DNA from: Dehalobacterium formicoaceticum
GTDB taxonomy: Bacteria > Bacillota > Dehalobacteriia > Dehalobacteriales > Dehalobacteriaceae
Assembly: GCF_002224645.1 (NCBI RefSeq)
Contig: NZ_CP022121.1
Location: forward strand, 2,300,501-2,364,500
DNA: 64,000 nt
Direction of reading: 5' to 3'
The position numbers were made by a program, and so were the translations under genes. Below are positions 19,201 to 61,436 of the stretch, piece by piece (the stretch's first letter is position 1; every line of letters starts with the position of its first letter). The notes under the pieces were generated by a model. The model did not search any database. It saw only the letters and a program-made list of their open reading frames with translations, and was not told the origin of the DNA.

Positions 19201-19980
19201 TCATGCCAGTTGCTGTTGTTGTAACCACTCCTTCGTTTCTTTCATGCGGTACGAGTTTCCATTCATGTTGACGATGTATGACTGATGCGTCAACCGGTCA
19301 ATCATGGCCGCCGTCATCACGGGATCCTGAAAAATTTCACCCCATCGTTCGAAGGATAAGTTGGTTGTGATGATTGTCGATTTGCGACCAGCCCTCAGCG
19401 ACAAATGGGTAAACAATAATTCAGATCCTTCCTTATCAAAAGATATATAACCCATTTCATCGGCAATAACCAAATCATATTTTTCAAAGCGGTTCTGGAA
19501 GGCTCGAAGAGTTTGCTCTGCTCGGCATTCTTTAATCCGGTTAATGAGGAGGGGAACAGTTGTAAACCATACTTTATATCCCTCCAGGCAGGCCTTTAAG
19601 CCTAGCCCAATACTCACATGCGTCTTGCCTGTTCCCGGGTTCCCCGCCAGAATAATGTTGCGCCCCTCCTGAATAAACTCTAATGTTTTCAGCTGCTTTA
19701 ACTTCTTTTGGGCATCATCTGGCAAATCCGCGATGACCAAATCTTCAAGGTACTTTTTATGTGTAAATTCAGCCAGACGAATGCGATTATGCCGCGAGGC
19801 TTCCCGACGAGCATCACATTCCTTCTCCAGTAACTGCGCCAGAAATGCTTCATAACTGGCATCCTGCTGCGTTGACTCCCGAACTTGCTCATCCAAATGC
19901 TTACGAATCATAGGGAGTCTCAGTTCTTTGCTATATTCCAATATCGCTTCCTTAAACGCCTTGCGCGGCGCGTTACTCAT
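19201..19980 (-). CDS. istB: IstB-like ATP-binding helper protein
   Basis: The complete helper ATPase is 259 residues. Walker A is 'LAGNPGTGKTH' near residue 117, Walker B is 'YDLVIADEMGYI', and the arginine-containing 'TTNLSFERW' sensor region follows. It forms AAA+ assemblies on target DNA and directs IstA insertion. Its start overlaps the istA stop by 4 bp. Identical to the protein from copy 3. Confidence 0.96.
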   Translation of the reverse strand: MSNAPRKAFKEAILEYSKELRLPMIRKHLDEQVRESTQQDASYEAFLAQLLEKECDARREASRHNRIRLAEFTHKKYLEDLVIADLPDDAQKKLKQLKTLEFIQEGRNIILAGNPGTGKTHVSIGLGLKACLEGYKVWFTTVPLLINRIKECRAEQTLRAFQNRFEKYDLVIADEMGYISFDKEGSELLFTHLSLRAGRKSTIITTNLSFERWGEIFQDPVMTAAMIDRLTHQSYIVNMNGNSYRMKETKEWLQQQQLA

Positions 19981-21566
19981 GCAACGTCCTCCTTTGCTTT
20001 TGGTGTATGGGTATCAAACATGTCATCGTACATGCGAAGCTGCTGTGCTGACCGCTCTACAATCTCTTTTCCCGTTTTCGAGAGATTTGGTTGAACAACA
20101 GGCATCGCGTCACGATTCCTAGCACAAAGCACTTTAATTTTATCCGTAGTCACTTGAGCCGGATGAATTTTCTCCAGCTCCCGAATAGCTTGCTCGACTT
20201 CCGCAAATGGGACATCGTCTCGAATATATTGCAATAGCTGTATAAATTCCTTGTCTTGTTTGGTATAATATGTTTCGTATATTTCTTTTATCCTTTTAGG
20301 AGCCTGCTGCCATGCCGCACTACCGGCAAATGCACCAGGTTTTTTCCTTAGCGTATCCAAATAATGATTCAGATCAAGCCGCCACTCGTGGTTGCCGGTT
20401 AATCGCACATGCTCCGCTACCAAGGATTCCTGATGGAAGCATCGCACCCGGGTCGCATATGCTTTAATCATGATCGATTCACCTACCAAATGATCCGGTA
20501 CTGAGTAACGATTCTGATCAACGATGATGGTGGAATATTTGTTCACCCGTCCATAAATCACGCGAGCTGCATCAAATGGTGGAAGGGTGGGCAGCAATGC
20601 GGGGCGCTCTTCTTCCAATCGTTCCTCCGCCGTCTGGCCGTTGTACTCATCATGGGACTTACGATTACGCTTAGTGCACACATCCTGCAAATATTGATTT
20701 GCCTCCTCCAGGGATTCAAATTCGTCCCGAAAAGCGAAGGCTTTTCGGCGAACGACCTCGACGCTTCGCTCCACATGACCTTTTTCGTTGCCCTTGCGAA
20801 TATTGCAAAACCGATACTGAAAACCATAGTAGAGCGACAATTGAAGCAATCCTTGCGTCGGCTCCTTCTCCGTTCCAATAAACCTTTTCACCGCGACTTT
20901 CATGTTATCGTACACCATGGTACGATACACTTGGCCGATATGCTGGAAAAACAGGGCGTGTGCTTCCTGAAAACACTCTGTTGTTTGTTTGGTGAACAGA
21001 TAAGCAAAGCGATAGTTCCCGTAAGCCGTTGTGAATACGGCCATCTGAAAAACTTGAAATTTTCCATTAATTTTTAGTTTAACCTCACCCCAATCAAATT
21101 CGCAAATGTCTCCAAGTTCATACAGAGCCTTAATAAACGCTTCCTTTGGTTTCCGTTCCAAGCTTCTAATGGTTCGAAGAACGGTACTGTAACTTAGTTG
21201 AGTACCCTCGGCTTCCAGTGCTTCAAAGATATCAATGGCTTTTTTTTGCTGCTTGTGCCGCCCCTGATTTCGCTTAGTTTCATTCTCGTCAAGATAGAAC
21301 TGGATCCTGTTCACAACCTCGTCAGTCATTTTTCTTTTGGGTCGAATGCCCACAGTATACTTGGGGGCAGAAGTGAGGGTGTCGACTAGTGCCTGGATAT
21401 CTGCCGACCCGCTCGACAATAATTGCTGTCTCCCTTCCTCATATTGTCCAATGTACTTTCCTACGGTGTCCCGATTGATCCCTGTTATTTTCGCAATTTC
21501 CCGGCGCGATTTCCCTTCATGAATATGCATCATTAAAATTTGTTGCTTGATGTTCATTGTGATCAT
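19977..21566 (-). CDS. istA: IS21-family transposase IstA
   Basis: A 529-residue transposase identical to those at 260-1849 and 27893-29482. The N-terminal helix-turn-helix (residues ~1-45) is followed by the integrase core with 'EFDWGEVK', 'MVYDNMKVA' and 'GHVERSVEVV', and a Mu-type C-terminal domain ('YSVPDHLVGESIMI'). No ribosome binding site stronger than GGGAGAG is seen ahead of the ATG pair. Intact. Confidence 0.96.
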   Translation of the reverse strand: MITMNIKQQILMMHIHEGKSRREIAKITGINRDTVGKYIGQYEEGRQQLLSSGSADIQALVDTLTSAPKYTVGIRPKRKMTDEVVNRIQFYLDENETKRNQGRHKQQKKAIDIFEALEAEGTQLSYSTVLRTIRSLERKPKEAFIKALYELGDICEFDWGEVKLKINGKFQVFQMAVFTTAYGNYRFAYLFTKQTTECFQEAHALFFQHIGQVYRTMVYDNMKVAVKRFIGTEKEPTQGLLQLSLYYGFQYRFCNIRKGNEKGHVERSVEVVRRKAFAFRDEFESLEEANQYLQDVCTKRNRKSHDEYNGQTAEERLEEERPALLPTLPPFDAARVIYGRVNKYSTIIVDQNRYSVPDHLVGESIMIKAYATRVRCFHQESLVAEHVRLTGNHEWRLDLNHYLDTLRKKPGAFAGSAAWQQAPKRIKEIYETYYTKQDKEFIQLLQYIRDDVPFAEVEQAIRELEKIHPAQVTTDKIKVLCARNRDAMPVVQPNLSKTGKEIVERSAQQLRMYDDMFDTHTPKAKEDVA

Positions 21567-27892: not shown

Positions 27893-29482
27893 ATGATCAC
27901 AATGAACATCAAGCAACAAATTTTAATGATGCATATTCATGAAGGGAAATCGCGCCGGGAAATTGCGAAAATAACAGGGATCAATCGGGACACCGTAGGA
28001 AAGTACATTGGACAATATGAGGAAGGGAGACAGCAATTATTGTCGAGCGGGTCGGCAGATATCCAGGCACTAGTCGACACCCTCACTTCTGCCCCCAAGT
28101 ATACTGTGGGCATTCGACCCAAAAGAAAAATGACTGACGAGGTTGTGAACAGGATCCAGTTCTATCTTGACGAGAATGAAACTAAGCGAAATCAGGGGCG
28201 GCACAAGCAGCAAAAAAAAGCCATTGATATCTTTGAAGCACTGGAAGCCGAGGGTACTCAACTAAGTTACAGTACCGTTCTTCGAACCATTAGAAGCTTG
28301 GAACGGAAACCAAAGGAAGCGTTTATTAAGGCTCTGTATGAACTTGGAGACATTTGCGAATTTGATTGGGGTGAGGTTAAACTAAAAATTAATGGAAAAT
28401 TTCAAGTTTTTCAGATGGCCGTATTCACAACGGCTTACGGGAACTATCGCTTTGCTTATCTGTTCACCAAACAAACAACAGAGTGTTTTCAGGAAGCACA
28501 CGCCCTGTTTTTCCAGCATATCGGCCAAGTGTATCGTACCATGGTGTACGATAACATGAAAGTCGCGGTGAAAAGGTTTATTGGAACGGAGAAGGAGCCG
28601 ACGCAAGGATTGCTTCAATTGTCGCTCTACTATGGTTTTCAGTATCGGTTTTGCAATATTCGCAAGGGCAACGAAAAAGGTCATGTGGAGCGAAGCGTCG
28701 AGGTCGTTCGCCGAAAAGCCTTCGCTTTTCGGGACGAATTTGAATCCCTGGAGGAGGCAAATCAATATTTGCAGGATGTGTGCACTAAGCGTAATCGTAA
28801 GTCCCATGATGAGTACAACGGCCAGACGGCGGAGGAACGATTGGAAGAAGAGCGCCCCGCATTGCTGCCCACCCTTCCACCATTTGATGCAGCTCGCGTG
28901 ATTTATGGACGGGTGAACAAATATTCCACCATCATCGTTGATCAGAATCGTTACTCAGTACCGGATCATTTGGTAGGTGAATCGATCATGATTAAAGCAT
29001 ATGCGACCCGGGTGCGATGCTTCCATCAGGAATCCTTGGTAGCGGAGCATGTGCGATTAACCGGCAACCACGAGTGGCGGCTTGATCTGAATCATTATTT
29101 GGATACGCTAAGGAAAAAACCTGGTGCATTTGCCGGTAGTGCGGCATGGCAGCAGGCTCCTAAAAGGATAAAAGAAATATACGAAACATATTATACCAAA
29201 CAAGACAAGGAATTTATACAGCTATTGCAATATATTCGAGACGATGTCCCATTTGCGGAAGTCGAGCAAGCTATTCGGGAGCTGGAGAAAATTCATCCGG
29301 CTCAAGTGACTACGGATAAAATTAAAGTGCTTTGTGCTAGGAATCGTGACGCGATGCCTGTTGTTCAACCAAATCTCTCGAAAACGGGAAAAGAGATTGT
29401 AGAGCGGTCAGCACAGCAGCTTCGCATGTACGATGACATGTTTGATACCCATACACCAAAAGCAAAGGAGGACGTTGCATGA
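27893..29482 (+). CDS. istA: IS21-family transposase IstA
   Basis: Identical 529-residue IstA to copies 1 and 2, with the full helix-turn-helix, DDE core and C-terminal domain. It overlaps istB by 4 bp. The identity among three copies indicates recent spread in this genome. Confidence 0.96.
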   Translation: MITMNIKQQILMMHIHEGKSRREIAKITGINRDTVGKYIGQYEEGRQQLLSSGSADIQALVDTLTSAPKYTVGIRPKRKMTDEVVNRIQFYLDENETKRNQGRHKQQKKAIDIFEALEAEGTQLSYSTVLRTIRSLERKPKEAFIKALYELGDICEFDWGEVKLKINGKFQVFQMAVFTTAYGNYRFAYLFTKQTTECFQEAHALFFQHIGQVYRTMVYDNMKVAVKRFIGTEKEPTQGLLQLSLYYGFQYRFCNIRKGNEKGHVERSVEVVRRKAFAFRDEFESLEEANQYLQDVCTKRNRKSHDEYNGQTAEERLEEERPALLPTLPPFDAARVIYGRVNKYSTIIVDQNRYSVPDHLVGESIMIKAYATRVRCFHQESLVAEHVRLTGNHEWRLDLNHYLDTLRKKPGAFAGSAAWQQAPKRIKEIYETYYTKQDKEFIQLLQYIRDDVPFAEVEQAIRELEKIHPAQVTTDKIKVLCARNRDAMPVVQPNLSKTGKEIVERSAQQLRMYDDMFDTHTPKAKEDVA

Positions 29483-42300: not shown

Positions 42301-42338
42301 AACACCTCCAATTGATGGTAGCATCAATTGGAGGTGTT
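42301..42338 (+). promoter_or_regulatory. 17-bp hairpin hiding the RAYT ribosome binding site
   Basis: AACACCTCCAATTGATG (42301-42317) and its exact complement (42322-42338) enclose a GTAG loop. The 3' arm contains GGAGGTG, the Shine-Dalgarno sequence for TTG 42343. Transcripts entering from outside would fold and mask it, as in the known 5' hairpin of IS200 tnpA. Confidence 0.8.
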
Positions 42339-42342
42339 TCTT

Positions 42343-43104
42343 TTGCCAAGAAAAGCCAGGAAGAAAAGTGAAAGTGGAATATACCACATGATGATGAGGA
42401 GAATAAATCGGCAGAGCATTTTTGAAGATGAAGAAGACTGTGTGAAATTTATTCAAACTATACAGCAATACAAAGAAAAAAGTGGATATCAAATCTATGC
42501 ATATTGCTTAATGGGAAATCATGTTCATCTATTATTAAAAATTGGCAAAGAGCCACTAGAACAAATAATGCGGAGAATATGCGGCAGTTATGTTTATTGG
42601 TACAACTCCAAATATCAAAGAATCGGAAACTTATTTCAAGACAGATTTAAAAGCGAGCCAGTAGAAAGTGAAACTTACTTTTTAATTCTTTTAAGATATA
42701 TTCATCAAAATCCAGTTAAAGCCGGATTGGTAAGAGATGTCGAGCAATACAAATGGAGCAGTTTTATTGAATATATAAATAAAACAGAAGTAGTTGATGT
42801 GGATTTTGCTTTAGAAATATTTAACGGTGATAGAGAAACGGCAAAAAACAGCTTTACTCAATACATTAGAGGAGCTAATGACGATATTTGTTTGGATATT
42901 GAAGAAAAGCATCGAATAACGGATGAAGAAGCAAGAGACATAATCAAAAAAGTTTGTCATGTAGAGAATGCATCGGATATCCAAAAGGCCGATATAGCTA
43001 TAAGGAATGCATATTTAAAAGAACTAAAAGACCGATATAGCTTATCAATTAGACAAATTGAAAGACTTACAGGTATCAATAGGGGTATTGTTTTAAAAAC
43101 ATGA
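42343..43104 (+). CDS. REP-associated tyrosine transposase (RAYT, Y1/TnpA_REP)
   Basis: A 253-residue HUH-superfamily protein: 'PRKARKKSESGIYHMMMRRI', the metal-binding 'GNHVHLLLKIG' (HUH) and 'RDRFKSEPV'-type region ('FQDRFKSEPVESETYFLILL'). 'RYIHQNPVKAGLV' carries the region of the catalytic Tyr. A C-terminal helix-turn-helix-like end follows ('SLSIRQIERLTGINRGIV'). TTG 42343 is placed 6 bp after GGAGGTG. RAYTs are single-copy genes that nick and move palindromic REP sequences. Its inverted REP flanks are present, as are decayed relatives elsewhere in the window. Confidence 0.92.
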   Translation: MPRKARKKSESGIYHMMMRRINRQSIFEDEEDCVKFIQTIQQYKEKSGYQIYAYCLMGNHVHLLLKIGKEPLEQIMRRICGSYVYWYNSKYQRIGNLFQDRFKSEPVESETYFLILLRYIHQNPVKAGLVRDVEQYKWSSFIEYINKTEVVDVDFALEIFNGDRETAKNSFTQYIRGANDDICLDIEEKHRITDEEARDIIKKVCHVENASDIQKADIAIRNAYLKELKDRYSLSIRQIERLTGINRGIVLKT

Positions 43105-43195: not shown

Positions 43196-43666
43196 ATGAC
43201 CTCTACCGTTGAACACACTTTGATTACGGTTGAATGTGATTACCTTACAGTTGAGCAATATGCAGCTATGAACAATGTAGAACCTGTTACCATAAGACAA
43301 TGGATAAAACGTGGTAAATTAGGACATGCAAAAAAGAATGGACGCGATTGGTTAATCCCTGACATTGAAGATAAGCCTCGGCGTGGTTTTACCAGTGTTC
43401 GGTATATAATAGAAAATGATGCACATATTGAAAGTGATGAATTCCCATTGCTACCAGTATCCGACTCAATAACAATTGTGCAGGATCAAAATATGAAAAG
43501 CAAATTTATTTGCTACCTTAATAATTATAAAACTAAGTTTCACAGCATACTTGAATTGACAAGAACTGAAGTTGAACGATTGGAACATACCATTATTGAG
43601 TCGGGAAAAGCGAGAGTTGCAGCAAATATACAATATGTCCCTTATATTAGAGATATGGAAGGCTGA
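43196..43666 (+). CDS. Helix-turn-helix (excisionase-like) protein, possibly 5' truncated
   Basis: The central part 'LTVEQYAAMNNVEPVTIRQW' with 'IKRGKLGHAKKNGRDWLIPD' is a MerR/excisionase-type DNA-binding fold. The rest ends with a helical 'SILELTRTEVERLEHTIIES'. ATG 43196 lacks a ribosome binding site, and the frame continues upstream ('CQADEIEVENGEISG') to the REP at 43135, so the RAYT unit may have cut off the N-terminus. It lies 197 bp ahead of the large helicase gene and could regulate it, but no operator is evident. The gap 43667-43863 is AT-rich and shows no gene. Confidence 0.6.
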   Translation: MTSTVEHTLITVECDYLTVEQYAAMNNVEPVTIRQWIKRGKLGHAKKNGRDWLIPDIEDKPRRGFTSVRYIIENDAHIESDEFPLLPVSDSITIVQDQNMKSKFICYLNNYKTKFHSILELTRTEVERLEHTIIESGKARVAANIQYVPYIRDMEG

Positions 43667-43863
43667 GTAATTTGTGTGGATTTTAACCGAAATAATACAG
43701 AAGCAAAGAGCTTAAATTGTTCAAGGGGTTAAGGCTAAAAAAACAAAATATAAGCATTATTTACACTTTATACTATAATTTTACATAAATATATTGAATG
43801 TACTGTCATTCTGTGCTAATTTATTAGAGAGTTAAGGCACAGATTTGATAGAGGTGGGAAAAG

Positions 43864-46800
43864 TTGACGAAGCAAAAAATTAACAAAGACATTGAGGATA
43901 TTGAGAAAAACATAAACCTAGATAGTATCGATCAGGAAATCGCGAAGTCTGCTGTCCAAAGTCTTGTTAGCCTTATTATTGACATGGGAAGTGCAGTGGA
44001 AAATGAAAATAAGATAGATTTTAGCAGGGCATTGGAGCTCCTGAAGAAAGTTCATACTAATATTGATTCTAATGATTGGCTTTATGATTTTGTCAAAGCC
44101 TTTCTTTTTTATGTCTCAGGAAAATATAATGACTATTTGCAAACGATTAGAGTATTTGTAGCTAAGTATATAAAAGATAAGAAAAAATTCTCGTATGAAG
44201 CTGCTGAAGATTATTTTTTTGCTGTGTTTAATAATTTAAAGTTAAATGATAAAGTATTTCAAGCTTCTTATTCCGATAAATTCCTTCCAAAATTTCATAC
44301 AATACTTAAAAAGCATTGTCCAGATTCGGCATTAGAACGGTATATAAGATTTTGTTTGGCGAAAACACAGAATTCGACCATACTCATAAAACATCTCCAG
44401 GGTGTGTTGGAAAATGATGAAAAATGGGCAGTTGCTTATGCTCACCTTGGGGATATTTACTATGATAAGTCAGAATGGCAAAAGGCTGTTGAGAATTATG
44501 AAAAAGCTATTAAAACAAGTGAGTATAGCAAAACCGACGCCATATATTTCTACCTTGGATGGGCTTATTCAAAACTCAAGGATTATAAGAACGAAGAAAC
44601 AGCTTACAGAAAATGTATTGAAATTACCCCCGCGTACCCGTTTGCTAATAACAACTTGGGTTATTGTCTTGTTAGACAACTAAGGTATGAAGAAGCACTT
44701 GCCGTTTTCGATCAGTGTATTGAACTTGAAACTGATAAGCACTTTCCATATAGGAATAAGTTTGACACGCTAAAGAAACTAGGGAGGATTGAAGAAGCAG
44801 TAGTGCTAGTTGAAACATGGCCCAAATATTTCAACACAAAGTTTTACAGGGAAGAATTCCAAAAAATCAAGGGGGGATCATCGCAAATGACCGATATCTT
44901 CAGGAAATTGAACGAAGTAACTGAATCGGATTACGCCGGGGAAATGAGAGTTGCCAACGCTTCGAGCGGGATTGAATTGTACCCCCATCAACAGGATGCT
45001 ATTCGGGCCATGAATAAAGTTATCTTAAATGCCAATGATTATGCTGGTCTTTTGGTTTTACCTACTGGCGGTGGAAAAACCCTTACTGCAACATACTGGT
45101 TAATGCAAAGTCTCCTGGACAAAGGCAGAAAGATCGTCTGGCTTGCGCATCGGCACGAGTTGCTAAATCAGGCTCAGCGTGGTTTTGAAAAGGTCTGCTA
45201 TAAGGATATTGCCCAAAACAAACCATCCTATAACTGGCGAATTATTTCCGGTCAACACGATAAGCCGATTCACATTAAGCCTACTGACGATATCATCATT
45301 GCTAGCAAAACCAGTCTAAAGCGGGGATTAGATTATTTCCTGCAAAAGTGGCTTAAAGAAAATGGAGACAAAGTATTTTTGATTATTGATGAAGCCCACC
45401 ATGCCACTGCAAGCGAATACCGTGATTTAATTAACTGCATCAGGACTAATTCAAAGCACTTCAAAATGCTTGGTTTAACGGCTACGCCGTTTAGAACTGC
45501 CAGCAATGAGCAGGGTTTGCTGAAAAAAGTTTTTCCAAATGATATTGTATATAAAATTGATTTGCGTGAACTGATCAACCGGGGTATCCTTTCTGAACCA
45601 ATTTTCAAATCCGTTTCAACAAATGTTAACATGGTTAAACTGTTTGAAGAAAACAATTCAAAAGAGGCATTAGATCGAATTGCGCGCGACAGCTTTTTTG
45701 ATATCGAAAGTATTGGTAAAGAAACGGCTGCAGCAATTGCTAATAACAGCAAGAGAAACAGCGCAATAGTTAATGAGTATGTGAAAAATAAAGATAAGTA
45801 TAGGCAAACGCTTGTCTTTGCCTTGAATGTGGACATGGCGATTGTCATAAACGGATTATTTAATGCGGCAGGTATCCGCTCGGATTTCGTTGTATCCGAC
45901 ATCAGGGATCAAGTGACTCAGGTTACAATTTCTTCCGAAGAAAATGGAGAAAAAATTCAAAAATTCCGTGATGGCGAGTTGGACGTTCTTGTAAACGTCA
46001 ACATTCTGACTGAAGGTACTGATTTGCCAAAGGTTCAGTCCGTTTTTCTGACGCGTCCGACTAAATCGAATATACTTATGACACAGATGATTGGGCGTGC
46101 GTTACGCGGTGAAAAGGCTGGAGGGACAAAAGACGCTTATATCGTCAGCTTTATTGATGAGTGGCAGGAAAAAATAGCCTGGGTCAACCCGGAACAATTG
46201 TTCATCGACGAAAACGTCGACTTTACAAAAAAAGATTACGAGACGCGAAAAATGGCAATGCGCCTTGTTTCCATTGCCAAACTGGAGGAATTTGCTAAAA
46301 TCGCAAACGACACCATTGATTCAAGGTTGTCTGAATTGGCCTTTATTGACCGGATTCCGATTGGAATTTATAAGTTTTCTTATCTTGTTGAAGGTTCTGA
46401 GGAAGAAGAACTTGATAAATCCTGTAATGTGCTTGTGTATGATTGCATGAAAACAGCCTATGAGGATTTTCTGGCATGGCTTCAGTCAGCTGATTTATCT
46501 GACGTTGATGCAGCGGTCGAGCATGTGGACACCACACTGTTCGGAACGATGGATCTTCTGCTTGGTTACAGAAAACAGGATGTCTTCGATGTCATTCAGT
46601 ATTATAAGCAGACGCAGGAAACTCCACAGATGATTTATTTGTCAGAGCGCTCAGACTATGACGTAACCAATATTGCTCGGTATATTGTGGATAATGAGCT
46701 TACTCAGTCGGCCAAAAAAGAATACATCGATTCACAATGGAATAGGAGTGATACGCATTGGGCCGTGTTTTTCGGCATTGATAAGCAGAAAGCGTTCCGT

Positions 46801-47154
46801 AAGTTGATTAACGATGCCATCGACCGCATTGAAAATCCTGAAGATTATGCTAAGCCATCGGTCAAACCCATCACTGAGAAGGAAAAAATCCTCATTCAGG
46901 AATTACCGCTCCAAGAGATAAGACGCAGATTCCCAGAACTTGAAGAAAAAATCAGATACGCAGTCTTTGAAAAATATTCGGATCCAAGTGGCTTTTATTA
47001 TAGCGGTCTGAGCGGATATAAAAGCAAGAATAAGCTTGATTTTCAAATTGACCATATTAAACCAATGTCCAGTGGAGGTCTGACGGTAATGGATAATCTG
47101 CAACTTCTAACTCGAACTGAGAACCTTCGAAAAAGCGACAAACACTCCCGTTAA
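43864..47154 (+). CDS. TPR - superfamily 2 helicase - HNH endonuclease protein
   Basis: This is a 1096-residue multidomain protein. Residues ~1-180 are helical. Residues ~190-305 contain tetratricopeptide repeats ('AYAHLGDIYYDKSEWQKAVE', 'IYFYLGWAYSKLKDYKNEET', 'ANNNLGYCLVRQLRYEEALA'). Residues ~375-760 are an SF2 helicase: 'LPTGGGKT' (~399), 'IIDEAHH' (~507), 'LTATPFR', 'TEGTDLPKV' and 'MIGRALRG'. A ~250-residue unassigned region follows. The last ~45 residues are an HNH nuclease ('FQIDHIKPMSSGG', 'DNLQLLTRTENLRKSDK'). The start is TTG 43864 after GAGGTGGG. No methyltransferase is nearby, so it is not an ordinary restriction enzyme. A role in defence against phages or plasmids is inference. 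Confidence 0.88.
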   Translation: MTKQKINKDIEDIEKNINLDSIDQEIAKSAVQSLVSLIIDMGSAVENENKIDFSRALELLKKVHTNIDSNDWLYDFVKAFLFYVSGKYNDYLQTIRVFVAKYIKDKKKFSYEAAEDYFFAVFNNLKLNDKVFQASYSDKFLPKFHTILKKHCPDSALERYIRFCLAKTQNSTILIKHLQGVLENDEKWAVAYAHLGDIYYDKSEWQKAVENYEKAIKTSEYSKTDAIYFYLGWAYSKLKDYKNEETAYRKCIEITPAYPFANNNLGYCLVRQLRYEEALAVFDQCIELETDKHFPYRNKFDTLKKLGRIEEAVVLVETWPKYFNTKFYREEFQKIKGGSSQMTDIFRKLNEVTESDYAGEMRVANASSGIELYPHQQDAIRAMNKVILNANDYAGLLVLPTGGGKTLTATYWLMQSLLDKGRKIVWLAHRHELLNQAQRGFEKVCYKDIAQNKPSYNWRIISGQHDKPIHIKPTDDIIIASKTSLKRGLDYFLQKWLKENGDKVFLIIDEAHHATASEYRDLINCIRTNSKHFKMLGLTATPFRTASNEQGLLKKVFPNDIVYKIDLRELINRGILSEPIFKSVSTNVNMVKLFEENNSKEALDRIARDSFFDIESIGKETAAAIANNSKRNSAIVNEYVKNKDKYRQTLVFALNVDMAIVINGLFNAAGIRSDFVVSDIRDQVTQVTISSEENGEKIQKFRDGELDVLVNVNILTEGTDLPKVQSVFLTRPTKSNILMTQMIGRALRGEKAGGTKDAYIVSFIDEWQEKIAWVNPEQLFIDENVDFTKKDYETRKMAMRLVSIAKLEEFAKIANDTIDSRLSELAFIDRIPIGIYKFSYLVEGSEEEELDKSCNVLVYDCMKTAYEDFLAWLQSADLSDVDAAVEHVDTTLFGTMDLLLGYRKQDVFDVIQYYKQTQETPQMIYLSERSDYDVTNIARYIVDNELTQSAKKEYIDSQWNRSDTHWAVFFGIDKQKAFRKLINDAIDRIENPEDYAKPSVKPITEKEKILIQELPLQEIRRRFPELEEKIRYAVFEKYSDPSGFYYSGLSGYKSKNKLDFQIDHIKPMSSGGLTVMDNLQLLTRTENLRKSDKHSR

Positions 47155-47224
47155 GCATTGAGCTTTAATCGATAAAAATATGGTGGGGTGTGTATTCTCC
47201 ATTGATCTGTTTTTAGAGGTAACA

Positions 47225-47330
47225 GGGGGAGGGGGTTATTGACATTTATTAGGTGTCGACAACCCCGTCCCTCTGTCATTCCGATCGGGAAACAGGTGCT
47301 ATTACCCTAACCTATAAGAGGGACAAGGGG
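47225..47330. repeat. REP relatives downstream of the helicase gene
   Basis: GGGGGTTATTGACA, GGTGTCGACAACCCCGTCCC and CTCTGTCATTCCG at about 47231-47282 match the RAYT-flanking REPs at 42111 and 43106. No gene lies in 47155-47516; the second half belongs to the DUF1801 direct repeat. Confidence 0.65.
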
Positions 47331-47983
47331 ACAGGCACCTTGTCCCTCAAGTTTATTTCTGGTAGAATATCACTTAAGTTAAAAAATGCCAAGGTATGCC
47401 AGAAAGACAAGTAAAAGTGTTGCCCAATGAACTGTGGGAAGTATTCGCCTTAAAGCAATAACTTGCATTATGCAATCCGTGTGTGCCGCAACTTGGCGGC
47501 GGAAGGGAGACCAGCTATGAAAGATTTTCAAATATTTTTAGATAGTATCGGTGAATCGGACAAAAGGGAACGGATGGAAAGCATCCTAAATAACATTAAG
47601 GACATGTTTCCTCAATTGAATGAAGAAATTAAGTGGAATCAGCCGATGTTTAGTGACCATGGAACTTTTATCATCGGTTTTAGTGTTGCTAAAGGGCACA
47701 TTGCGGTAGCGCCTGAAGCGGTGGTCATTAGTTTGTTTGAAAAGGAGATCGAGGAAGCAGGTTATACCCATACACAGGAGCTGTTTAGAATCACATGGAC
47801 GGATAATGTAGATTTTGAATTGTTATATAAAATGGTTGCCTACAACATTGAGGATAAAAAAGATATGACAAATTTTTGGAGGTAATAAAAATAGGTGATA
47901 GAAAGGGAAAGAAAGGGAAAGGGGACAGGCACCTTGTCCCTCGAATTTATTTCTGATAGGGACGATGTACCTGTCCCCCCGTC
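47331..47983 (+). repeat. About 0.65-kb direct repeat, left copy (contains DUF1801 gene A)
   Basis: It begins GGGACAAGGGGACAGG and ends GTACCTGTCCC, with a decayed RAYT start ('MPRYARKTSKS') near 47387. It is highly similar to 49908-50566. Both copies are bounded by the GGGACA palindromes and lie on either side of the ABC transporter genes. Confidence 0.88.
47517..47885 (+). CDS. DUF1801-family protein A
   Basis: A 122-residue protein ('FQIFLDSIGESDKRERMESI', 'FPQLNEEIKWNQPMFSDHGT', 'HIAVAPEAVVISLFEKEIEE') of the YdhG/DUF1801 fold, sometimes called iron-chaperone-like. ATG 47517 has GGAAGGGAGA ahead. It differs from gene B at 50098 by three residues. The family function is poorly known. Confidence 0.8.
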   Translation: MKDFQIFLDSIGESDKRERMESILNNIKDMFPQLNEEIKWNQPMFSDHGTFIIGFSVAKGHIAVAPEAVVISLFEKEIEEAGYTHTQELFRITWTDNVDFELLYKMVAYNIEDKKDMTNFWR

Positions 47984-49907: not shown

Positions 49908-50566
49908 GGGACAGGCACCTTGTCCCCCATGTTTATTTCTGGTAGAATATCACTTAAGTTAAAAAATGCCAAGGTATGCCAGAAAGACAAGTAAAAGTGT
50001 TGCCCAATGAACTGTGGGATGTATTCGTCTTAAAGCAATAACTTGCATTATAGCAATCCGTGTAGGCCGCGACTTGGCGGCGGAAGGGAGACTAGCTATG
50101 AAAGATTTTCAAATATTTTTAGATAGTATCGGTGAATCGGACAAAAGGGAACGGATGGAAAGCATCCTAAATAACATTAAAGACAAGTTTCCTCAATTGA
50201 ATGAAGAAATTAAGTGGAATCAGCCGATGTTTAGTGACCATGGAACTTTTATCATCGGTTTTAGTGTTGCTAAAGGGCATATTGCGGTGGCGCCTGAAGC
50301 GGTGGTCATTAGTCTGTTTGAAAAGGAGATCGAGGAAGCAGGTTATACCCATACACAGGAGCTGTTCAGAATCAAGTGGGCGGATAATGTAGATTTTGAA
50401 TTGTTATATAAAATGGTTGCCTACAACATTGAGGATAAAAAAGATATGACAAATTTTTGGAGGTAATAAAAAAAGGTGGTAGAAAGGGAAAGAAAGGGAA
50501 AGGGGACAGGCACCTTGTTCCTCGAGTTTATTTCTGATAGGGACGATGTACCTGTCCCCCTGTCCC
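49908..50566 (+). repeat. About 0.65-kb direct repeat, right copy (contains DUF1801 gene B)
   Basis: It repeats 47331-47983, including the REP-like ends, the RAYT 5' relic near 49966, the DUF1801 gene and the downstream AAAGGGAAAGAAAGGGAAAG tract. Differences are scattered substitutions and a few single-base indels. Confidence 0.88.
50098..50466 (+). CDS. DUF1801-family protein B
   Basis: Differs from copy A only at three residues (Lys for Met in 'NIKDKFPQ', and 'FRIKWADN' for 'FRITWTDN'). The ribosome binding site and upstream context are the same. The near-identity in a direct repeat indicates a recent duplication. Confidence 0.8.
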   Translation: MKDFQIFLDSIGESDKRERMESILNNIKDKFPQLNEEIKWNQPMFSDHGTFIIGFSVAKGHIAVAPEAVVISLFEKEIEEAGYTHTQELFRIKWADNVDFELLYKMVAYNIEDKKDMTNFWR

Positions 50567-51047: not shown

Positions 51048-51527
51048 ATGGTGGGCGAAAAAGAAATACTTAATAATCTCGAAAAGCTAACCACTGAAAC
51101 TGGATTAGAGAAATTATTGAATAAACCCATAGACACCGGCCCTTTCTACCATGGCACAAAAGCCGATTTAAAGGTTGGGGATTTGCTGGAACCTGGCTTT
51201 AGTTCTAATTATGGTAAGCGAAAGAAGGCTAACTTCATCTATTTCACCGCAACCATGGATGCGGCGATTTGGGGAGCAGAACTTGCGGTTGGTGATCATC
51301 CAGGTCGGATCTATCAAGTGGAGCCCATCGATACTTTTGAGAATGATCCTAATTTAACTGATAAGAAATTCCCAGGCAATCCGACAAGGTCTTATCGTAC
51401 CAAGCAACCGCTGCGAATAGTGGGCGAAGTCTTGGAATGGGAGGGACATTCTCCAGAGGTGCTCCAGAACATGTTAGATAACCTTGAGAAGCTAAAATCG
51501 CAAGGGATCGAGGCAATTAACGAATGA
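51048..51527 (+). CDS. arr: Rifampin ADP-ribosyltransferase (Arr)
   Basis: Arr transfers ADP-ribose from NAD to a hydroxyl of rifamycin antibiotics and inactivates them. The Arr fingerprint is clear: 'PFYHGTKADLKVGDLLEPGF', 'YFTATMDAAIWGAELAVG', 'GRIYQVEPIDTFENDPNLTD', 'FPGNPTRSYRTKQPLRIVGE' and 'EWEGHSPEVL'. At 159 residues it has an extra ~25-residue N-terminal helix compared with the ~140-residue usual length. ATG 51048 is preceded by GGGAGGC. A natural (non-plasmid) arr in an environmental Firmicute is plausible. Confidence 0.92.
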   Translation: MVGEKEILNNLEKLTTETGLEKLLNKPIDTGPFYHGTKADLKVGDLLEPGFSSNYGKRKKANFIYFTATMDAAIWGAELAVGDHPGRIYQVEPIDTFENDPNLTDKKFPGNPTRSYRTKQPLRIVGEVLEWEGHSPEVLQNMLDNLEKLKSQGIEAINE

Positions 51528-60509: not shown

Positions 60510-61436
60510 ATGGTGTTGATAATGGGACAAACCATAATTCCTGATGAAATTAGGCCTTTCTTTTGGGATGTAGATATTAATAACCTCGACTTAAATGACC
60601 ATCAGAAATATATTATCGAAAGGTTGCTTAATGAAGGGGATCATCGAGCTGTAAAGTGGTTATTTCAAACATTCTCATTAAAACAAATTAAAAATGTCGT
60701 GCTGCAAAGCAGGGGGCTTTCGTTGCAAACTACCCTTTGTTGGCAGAATTTTTTTCAACTAAAGGAAGAAGAAAATGGGATGTTTTGGAACGTACTCGAT
60801 GAAGCCAGAATGGAAATACTGCGCAAAATTATTGAAATCGAGCCTGTTCCCAGATCTTTCTTGTCTGGTGGAACGGGTTTAGCATTAATGCTTGGACACA
60901 GGGAATCTATTGACTTTGACTGGATTACTCCTGAAGTGTTTCAAATTCAAGAACTCATAGATAAGTTAGCCATGATCGGTAAGGTTGAAATTGCCGATAC
61001 GGCTGAAGGGAACTTCCGTGGCTTTATTGATAATGTGAGGGTGACCTGGCTGCACTGTCCTAATCCCATGATGGATAATCTGATAGAAGAAAAACAAATA
61101 CCGGGACTAAAAATTGCATCATTAAAGGATATCGGACTATTGAAATGGATTGCCTTAAGCCAACGTGGGGCGCGAAATGATTTTGTTGATTTATATTGGA
61201 TTTGTCAGCAAAATGTCAGCTTGGAGCTTTTATATCAGCTGATGCCACAGAAATTCCCGGGTATAAATATTAATTATTATCATTTAATTAAAAGCCTCTC
61301 TTATTTCAAAGATGCAGAAAGGGAATTAATGCCTGTTATGAGGGGAGATCCAAACTGGGAAATTATCAAAGAATATTTTAAAAATATGCAAAGGGAATTG
61401 TTGGAGAAAGGAAGGCAAAGATCAATTGGCTCTTAG
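60510..61436 (+). CDS. AbiEii/AbiGii-type nucleotidyltransferase with N-terminal DUF6922-like domain
   Basis: A ~305-residue fusion. Residues ~1-90 ('PFFWDVDINNLDLNDHQKYI', 'GDHRAVKWLFQTFSLKQIKN', 'LSLQTTLCWQNFF') look like the DUF6922 domain found beside AbiEii toxins. The rest is an AbiEii-type nucleotidyltransferase with 'LSGGTGLALMLGHRESIDFDW' (GG...GHR.S.DFD) and 'ASLKDIGLLKWIALSQRGARNDFVDLYW'. AbiEii toxins modify tRNA or other targets to abort phage infection; here both parts are in one chain. The start may be ATG 60510, GTG 60513 or TTG 60516 after GGGAGG. It follows hxlR by 11 bp. Confidence 0.82.
   Translation: MVLIMGQTIIPDEIRPFFWDVDINNLDLNDHQKYIIERLLNEGDHRAVKWLFQTFSLKQIKNVVLQSRGLSLQTTLCWQNFFQLKEEENGMFWNVLDEARMEILRKIIEIEPVPRSFLSGGTGLALMLGHRESIDFDWITPEVFQIQELIDKLAMIGKVEIADTAEGNFRGFIDNVRVTWLHCPNPMMDNLIEEKQIPGLKIASLKDIGLLKWIALSQRGARNDFVDLYWICQQNVSLELLYQLMPQKFPGININYYHLIKSLSYFKDAERELMPVMRGDPNWEIIKEYFKNMQRELLEKGRQRSIGS

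Follow-up and report, generated by a model that had tools for sequence, protein, structure and literature searches.

A TPR–helicase–HNH protein of Dehalobacterium formicoaceticum is one variant of a modular helicase–nuclease family with a candidate role in DNA defence

The enzyme SauUSI carries an SF2 motor and a nuclease in a single polypeptide, without a methylase, and ZRANB3 is a eukaryotic annealing helicase with a SNF2-type motor and other regulatory domains. In TOTE conflict systems, TPR, OB and TBP components occur with an effector (PMC12458937). In D. radiodurans, the product of DRA0131, a fusion of an endonuclease with a RAD25-like helicase, has been listed among the unusual proteins of possible relevance to repair (PMC10614293) and among the helicases of the XPB/YejH type (PMC2587704). 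Here we describe a gene located in a stretch of 64,000 nucleotides of the D. formicoaceticum genome (the window), which an earlier note had singled out as a candidate single-gene defence system. Its product has an intact SF2 core, a C-terminal HNH nuclease and, between the two, a middle region common to the members of a helicase–middle–HNH family to which DRA0131 probably belongs.

The gene has TTG as start codon, is a single uninterrupted frame of 1096 codons and is present as a single copy in its own genome. The proposed order of TPR repeats, SF2 helicase, unassigned region and C-terminal HNH was upheld by Pfam, by an HNH profile and by superposition of the predicted model, and the D-H...N...N..K pattern expected of the HNH is present (Table 1). 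Pfam TPR families matched residues ∼188–322 well over cut-off, and the motor was matched by ResIII (residues 370–544, 6e-26), Helicase_C (636–748, 1e-12) and, also within ∼370–750, DEAD. The part that precedes the canonical repeats is fast-changing, as the window protein and its relative L011 share 29% identity over their first 180 residues. The middle region matched no Pfam family; when the predicted model was searched with Foldseek and VIA-align, only the HNH part had a good match and the middle region gave no clear known fold, a weak result that is not proof of a new fold. The Pfam HNH match (residues 1058–1092, 0.0015) is slightly below cut-off, with 19.1 bits against 21.4. We nevertheless consider this HNH domain as real because (i) the HNH of close relatives exceeds the Pfam cut-off, (ii) the family HNH profile matched ZRANB3, Gme HNH and EcoKMcrA in the PDB (4e-6 to 4e-4) and (iii) the predicted model aligns structurally with HNH folds, with a best Z of 7.0 to 4h9d over 70 residues (3.0 Å). 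The G+C content is 39% for the reading frame, 41% for the window and 46–51% for three other stretches of the genome; the low value of the gene is compatible with acquisition but no proof of it.

Table 1. Features of the TPR–helicase–HNH gene and its product, in window coordinates.
Feature	Position	Strand	Basis
Intact reading frame, 1096 aa, TPR – SF2 helicase – middle region – HNH	43864..47154	+	direct reading and Pfam
Shine-Dalgarno-like AGAGGTGGG upstream of the TTG start	43850..43858	+	read directly
Residues 1–188, TPR-like solenoid, weak ARM/CDC27-type repeat matches	43864..44427	+	
Residues 189–322, canonical TPR repeats	44428..44829	+	Pfam
Residues 370–763, SF2 (ResIII/RadD-like) helicase core	44971..46152	+	
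Walker A PTGGGKT, residues 400–406	45061..45081	+	
Walker B/motif II DEAHH, residues 509–513	45388..45402	+	
Residues 764–1030, family-specific middle region, mixed alpha/beta, mostly helical	46153..46953	+	
Residues 1031–1096, HNH nuclease	46954..47151	+	
HNH residues D1063-H1064	47050..47055		
HNH residues N1078, N1087, K1090			

Full-protein scans of viral and genome contigs were empty because the chosen peptide patterns fell in variable parts; the family was collected with the conserved middle–HNH alignment (A2) as query. This yielded 74 loci from Bacillota, Bacteroidota, Cyanobacteria, Chloroflexota, other bacteria and archaea, the archaeal carriers including Methanoperedens and Methanosphaera. 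The middle region between motor and nuclease is shared, the family being alignable over ∼340 residues with identity down to ∼22%. The Walker A lysine (K405 in the window protein) and the DEAH(H) motif are identical in 51 of 51 members, over which TAT and the Q/R/R of motif VI are also invariant. The HNH residues are conserved nearly as well (D in 49, H in 47, N in 51, N/H in 47 and K in 45 of the 51). These data indicate that both activities are under constraint. At the E-values used, and with its own genome counted, the family is present in one of 43 genomes of the window's class and in 5 of 398 genomes of its phylum, a distribution at odds with the alternative that the earlier note had set against its proposal, a housekeeping repair helicase conserved at a fixed chromosomal position. 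The note had also linked no named system to this domain order, and none was found in PADLOC, NCBIfam, Pfam and the open-access papers searched; in PADLOC 2.0.0 (library of 2023), the window protein had motor-only matches and none over its full length. The family is broad, patchy and apparently unnamed, and the window protein is a rare variant of it.

The helicase–HNH core carries alternative additions from locus to locus. One of these is an N-terminal module, ∼100 residues long and marked by a KLRTFLxxFGYKRRS-like motif. TPRs are found at the N-terminus in the window protein, L010 and L011 (TPR-N forms), and at the C-terminus in L028, L067 and L029, the last being the same protein as L007 (TPR-C forms). 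A helicase relative in L080 (8798–12532, + strand) has C-terminal pentapeptide repeats, which elsewhere can form a fold that mimics DNA, and still other C-terminal parts exist. A more distant relative, sharing motor and middle region (L008, 1093–3966, − strand), adjoins a GmrSD gene and has a metalloprotease-like HExxH stretch in place of the HNH, this stretch being read by eye without support from Pfam. In the short-form clade, a gene encoding ∼177 amino acids lies directly after the core gene or overlaps it in ∼19 of 21 loci. The proteins of this partner family (L038–L059, L068, L069 and L082, Methanosphaera members included) have no Pfam assignment and share homology in their C-terminal half with the fused N-terminal module (hhalign 98%, P ∼1e-14). 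The model of the partner has a pLDDT of 88.7; its C-terminal half follows the order helix-strand-helix-helix-strand-strand, and its structural matches are weak, many of them to winged-helix proteins (RepE, PadR, RTP, MarR; best Z 5.4). On this model, the fused module and the C-terminal half of the partner are predicted to be a winged helix, which has neither a Pfam family nor a convincing sequence relative in the PDB. A search of the window's own genome for this module was empty, an answer that carries little weight. The accessory part changes faster than the core when the window protein is compared to L011, with 39% identity in the TPR part against 66% in the helicase and 67% in the HNH. Because the core bears the predicted winged helix, fused or in trans, or TPRs at either end, the TPR–helicase–HNH protein is only one variant within a modular family. 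The suggestion of a single-gene system is plausible for the TPR-N variant, as its loci were seen without a common partner gene. The protein does not stand alone, however, as other clades of its broad family combine the core with a fused or separate winged-helix-like module.

The history of these modules was read from an unrooted tree built on the core, from motor to HNH. The three TPR-N forms group together as a clade (100/100) within a larger starred set (11 members, 98/91), the rest of which are all fused winged-helix forms. The TPR-C forms are in a separate starred group (96/98), which also contains L025, and the forms with a partner gene are on one side of a single branch (100/99). The simplest reading is that TPRs were acquired twice in the history of the family, at opposite ends of the protein. 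Since the tree is unrooted, the direction of module change is only inferred.

An IS200-like Y1 transposase gene (42328–43104) followed by an HTH_17 gene (43196–43666) is found immediately upstream of the TPR–helicase–HNH gene, in agreement with the mobile elements and the HTH regulator gene reported in the earlier note; the IstA-like transposase reading frames lie at least 14 kb away. The HTH_17 gene was rejected as a conserved partner, L010 having a WYL regulator, which overlaps the core gene, and no HTH_17 gene; the L011 contig has almost no sequence upstream of the core gene. The Y1 transposase two genes upstream, and a motor common to many phage helicases, could suggest that the gene serves a mobile element, as a replication or homing helicase–nuclease, and not defence. 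We regard this as very improbable: viral contigs searched with the conserved middle–HNH region contained zero relatives, phage and plasmid records match the motor alone save for two Deinococcus plasmid genes, which have motor, middle region and HNH in common with the window protein, and the most recurrent neighbours across the family (clusters annotated in part) include no conserved transposase or integrase partner. A phage replication helicase was also rejected.

Other features of the window were noted. Three reading frames of equal length (529 aa; 260–1849, 19977–21566 and 27893–29482), one of which encodes a Mu-type/IstA-like transposase and two of which adjoin a 259-aa reading frame, probably belong to three copies of the same IS21-like element. 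Downstream of the TPR–helicase–HNH gene (∼47150–47470), a palindromic GGGACAAGGGGACAGGCACCTTGTCCC-like sequence may be a REP element on which the Y1 transposase acts. Further downstream, two near-identical DUF1801 genes (47463–47885 and 50014–50466), possibly the result of a duplication, bracket a pair of ABC-2 transporter genes and are followed by an Arr-family rifampin ADP-ribosyltransferase gene (51048–51527, + strand; Pfam Arr-ms, 4e-49). The segment 60124–61436 (+ strand) comprises a 124-aa reading frame and an AbiEii-type nucleotidyltransferase with DUF6922 (60510–61436), a candidate AbiE-like toxin–antitoxin pair. This AbiEii-type gene, 13 kb downstream, is the nearest defence-like gene found, and the window is no obvious defence island. 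The absence of a methyltransferase and of a specificity subunit proposed in the earlier note was borne out, HsdM and HsdS included, for the larger reading frames scanned within ∼15 kb.

At other loci of the family, Cas7, Cas6 and Mrr are neighbours of the core (L027), GmrSD is found near it (L016 and L008), a gene encoding a YhcG nuclease overlaps it (L062) and HTH and ImmA/IrrE genes lie beside it (L067). We compared 133 neighbouring proteins from ∼55 loci to 133 control proteins from 20 arbitrary stretches of Bacillota genomes. At 1e-15, 91 PADLOC families were matched among the neighbours versus 9 among the controls; at 1e-40, ∼11 system names were matched versus 2, with p ∼0.01 when every name is taken as a different protein and ∼0.09 when only seven of them stand for different proteins. 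We take this excess as suggestive because families and not proteins were counted, one protein can match many models, and the control set is small and limited to Bacillota. Some PADLOC matches can be generic, ShosA, for example, being DprA-like.

Taken together, the patchy distribution, the restriction, CRISPR and regulator neighbours and the suggestive excess of PADLOC matches make defence the best reading, and patchiness and module exchange argue against a housekeeping role. We hold it moderately probable that the window protein acts as effector in a modular DNA-defence system made of a single polypeptide, similar to a methylase-free restriction machine. From the domain layout, the conservation of both active sites, the exchange of modules on the tree and the patchy distribution, all observed computationally, we infer a mechanism in which the SF2 motor would load onto duplex DNA and then move along it, the middle region would link the motor to the nuclease and the C-terminal HNH would cut DNA. 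The accessory module may control the timing or the site of enzyme action. In many relatives this module would be the predicted winged-helix DNA-binding domain, as an N-terminal fusion or as the product of the next gene; in the window variant the TPR solenoid takes its place and would more likely sense or dock onto an invader or host protein than a DNA sequence. Against a role in defence stand the lack of a defence island in the window, the weakness of the winged-helix structural matches and the discussion of a Deinococcus relative as a repair protein. More tentatively, and rather doubtfully, the family could represent an undescribed and widespread restriction-like class devoid of methylase, in which one helicase–HNH core is retargeted by module swap and TPR forms are triggered by an invader protein and not by a DNA sequence. 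If right, a broad and apparently unnamed family would join the helicase–nuclease defence systems and provide a natural case in which an unchanged cutting core is combined with different sensing parts. Such swapping would imply that one effector can be set off by recognising DNA when it carries the winged helix and by recognising a protein when it carries TPRs.

The main rival to the defence reading is a helicase–nuclease of DNA repair or recombination, comparable to RadD in its motor or to ZRANB3, whose TPRs would dock onto a replication or repair partner; we judge it unlikely. RadD (YejH) has a motor of the same SF2 branch and ranks first among the NCBIfam matches of the window motor (8e-29), ZRANB3 shares the combination of a motor with a C-terminal HNH and is the top PDB match of the family HNH profile (4e-6), and the DRA0131 fusion was published in a repair context (PMC10614293, PMC2587704). 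However, RadD has neither HNH nor TPR nor any match to the middle region, and a generic RadD was rejected as the window protein scores 100.4 bits on the RadD equivalog NF053632, over the motor only, against a cut-off of 720. The sequence match to ZRANB3 is confined to the HNH, many defence families are found among the neighbours, and neither accessory swapping nor absence from 42 of the 43 class members is expected of a housekeeping repair gene.

SauUSI-type IV enzymes (mREase_IV; 7clg, which we take to be SauUSI) resemble the window protein in that SF2 motor and nuclease are on one polypeptide and a methylase is absent. A modification-dependent, type IV-like restriction enzyme, whose middle region would read modified DNA and whose motor would bring nucleases together as in SauUSI with other domains, is nonetheless quite improbable. 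The PADLOC mREase_IV model matches the motor (1e-20), the best PDB matches include 7clg, the ∼15-kb scan revealed no methyltransferase, and HNH is the nuclease of EcoKMcrA. However, the mREase_IV match covers nothing beyond the motor, no recognised fold was assigned to the middle region, and where SauUSI has a PLD-type nuclease and an SRA-like reader, the family has HNH and TPR or the predicted winged helix: on the window protein, Pfam detected neither SRA, EVE or another modified-base reader nor a PLD nuclease.

Other matched motors belong to multi-gene systems. PbeA of the phosphorothioation-linked Pbe system (PADLOC, 2e-30) and HsdR of the EcoAI type (NCBIfam, 2e-24) match the SF2 motor only, the window protein scoring 85.8 bits on the type I HsdR model NF046051 against a cut-off of 550. 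TOTE systems also tie TPR to effectors in a conflict system, but no OB/CSD, TBP or AEP domain and no operon of TPR-CSD protein, TBP and effector was found in the window protein or its scanned neighbours. No description of the breadth of the family, the exchange of modules, the coupled partner gene or the TPR forms was found in the searched papers, whereas an endonuclease–helicase fusion of this kind has been reported in Deinococcus. WP_027479745.1 (L004), which from the description is probably DRA0131, has the same helicase–middle–HNH core, with 34% identity to the window protein (alignment A1); in contrast to the latter, this protein, discussed in terms of repair, is devoid of TPR, has an HNH with a CxxC pair and carries a C-terminal extension of its own.
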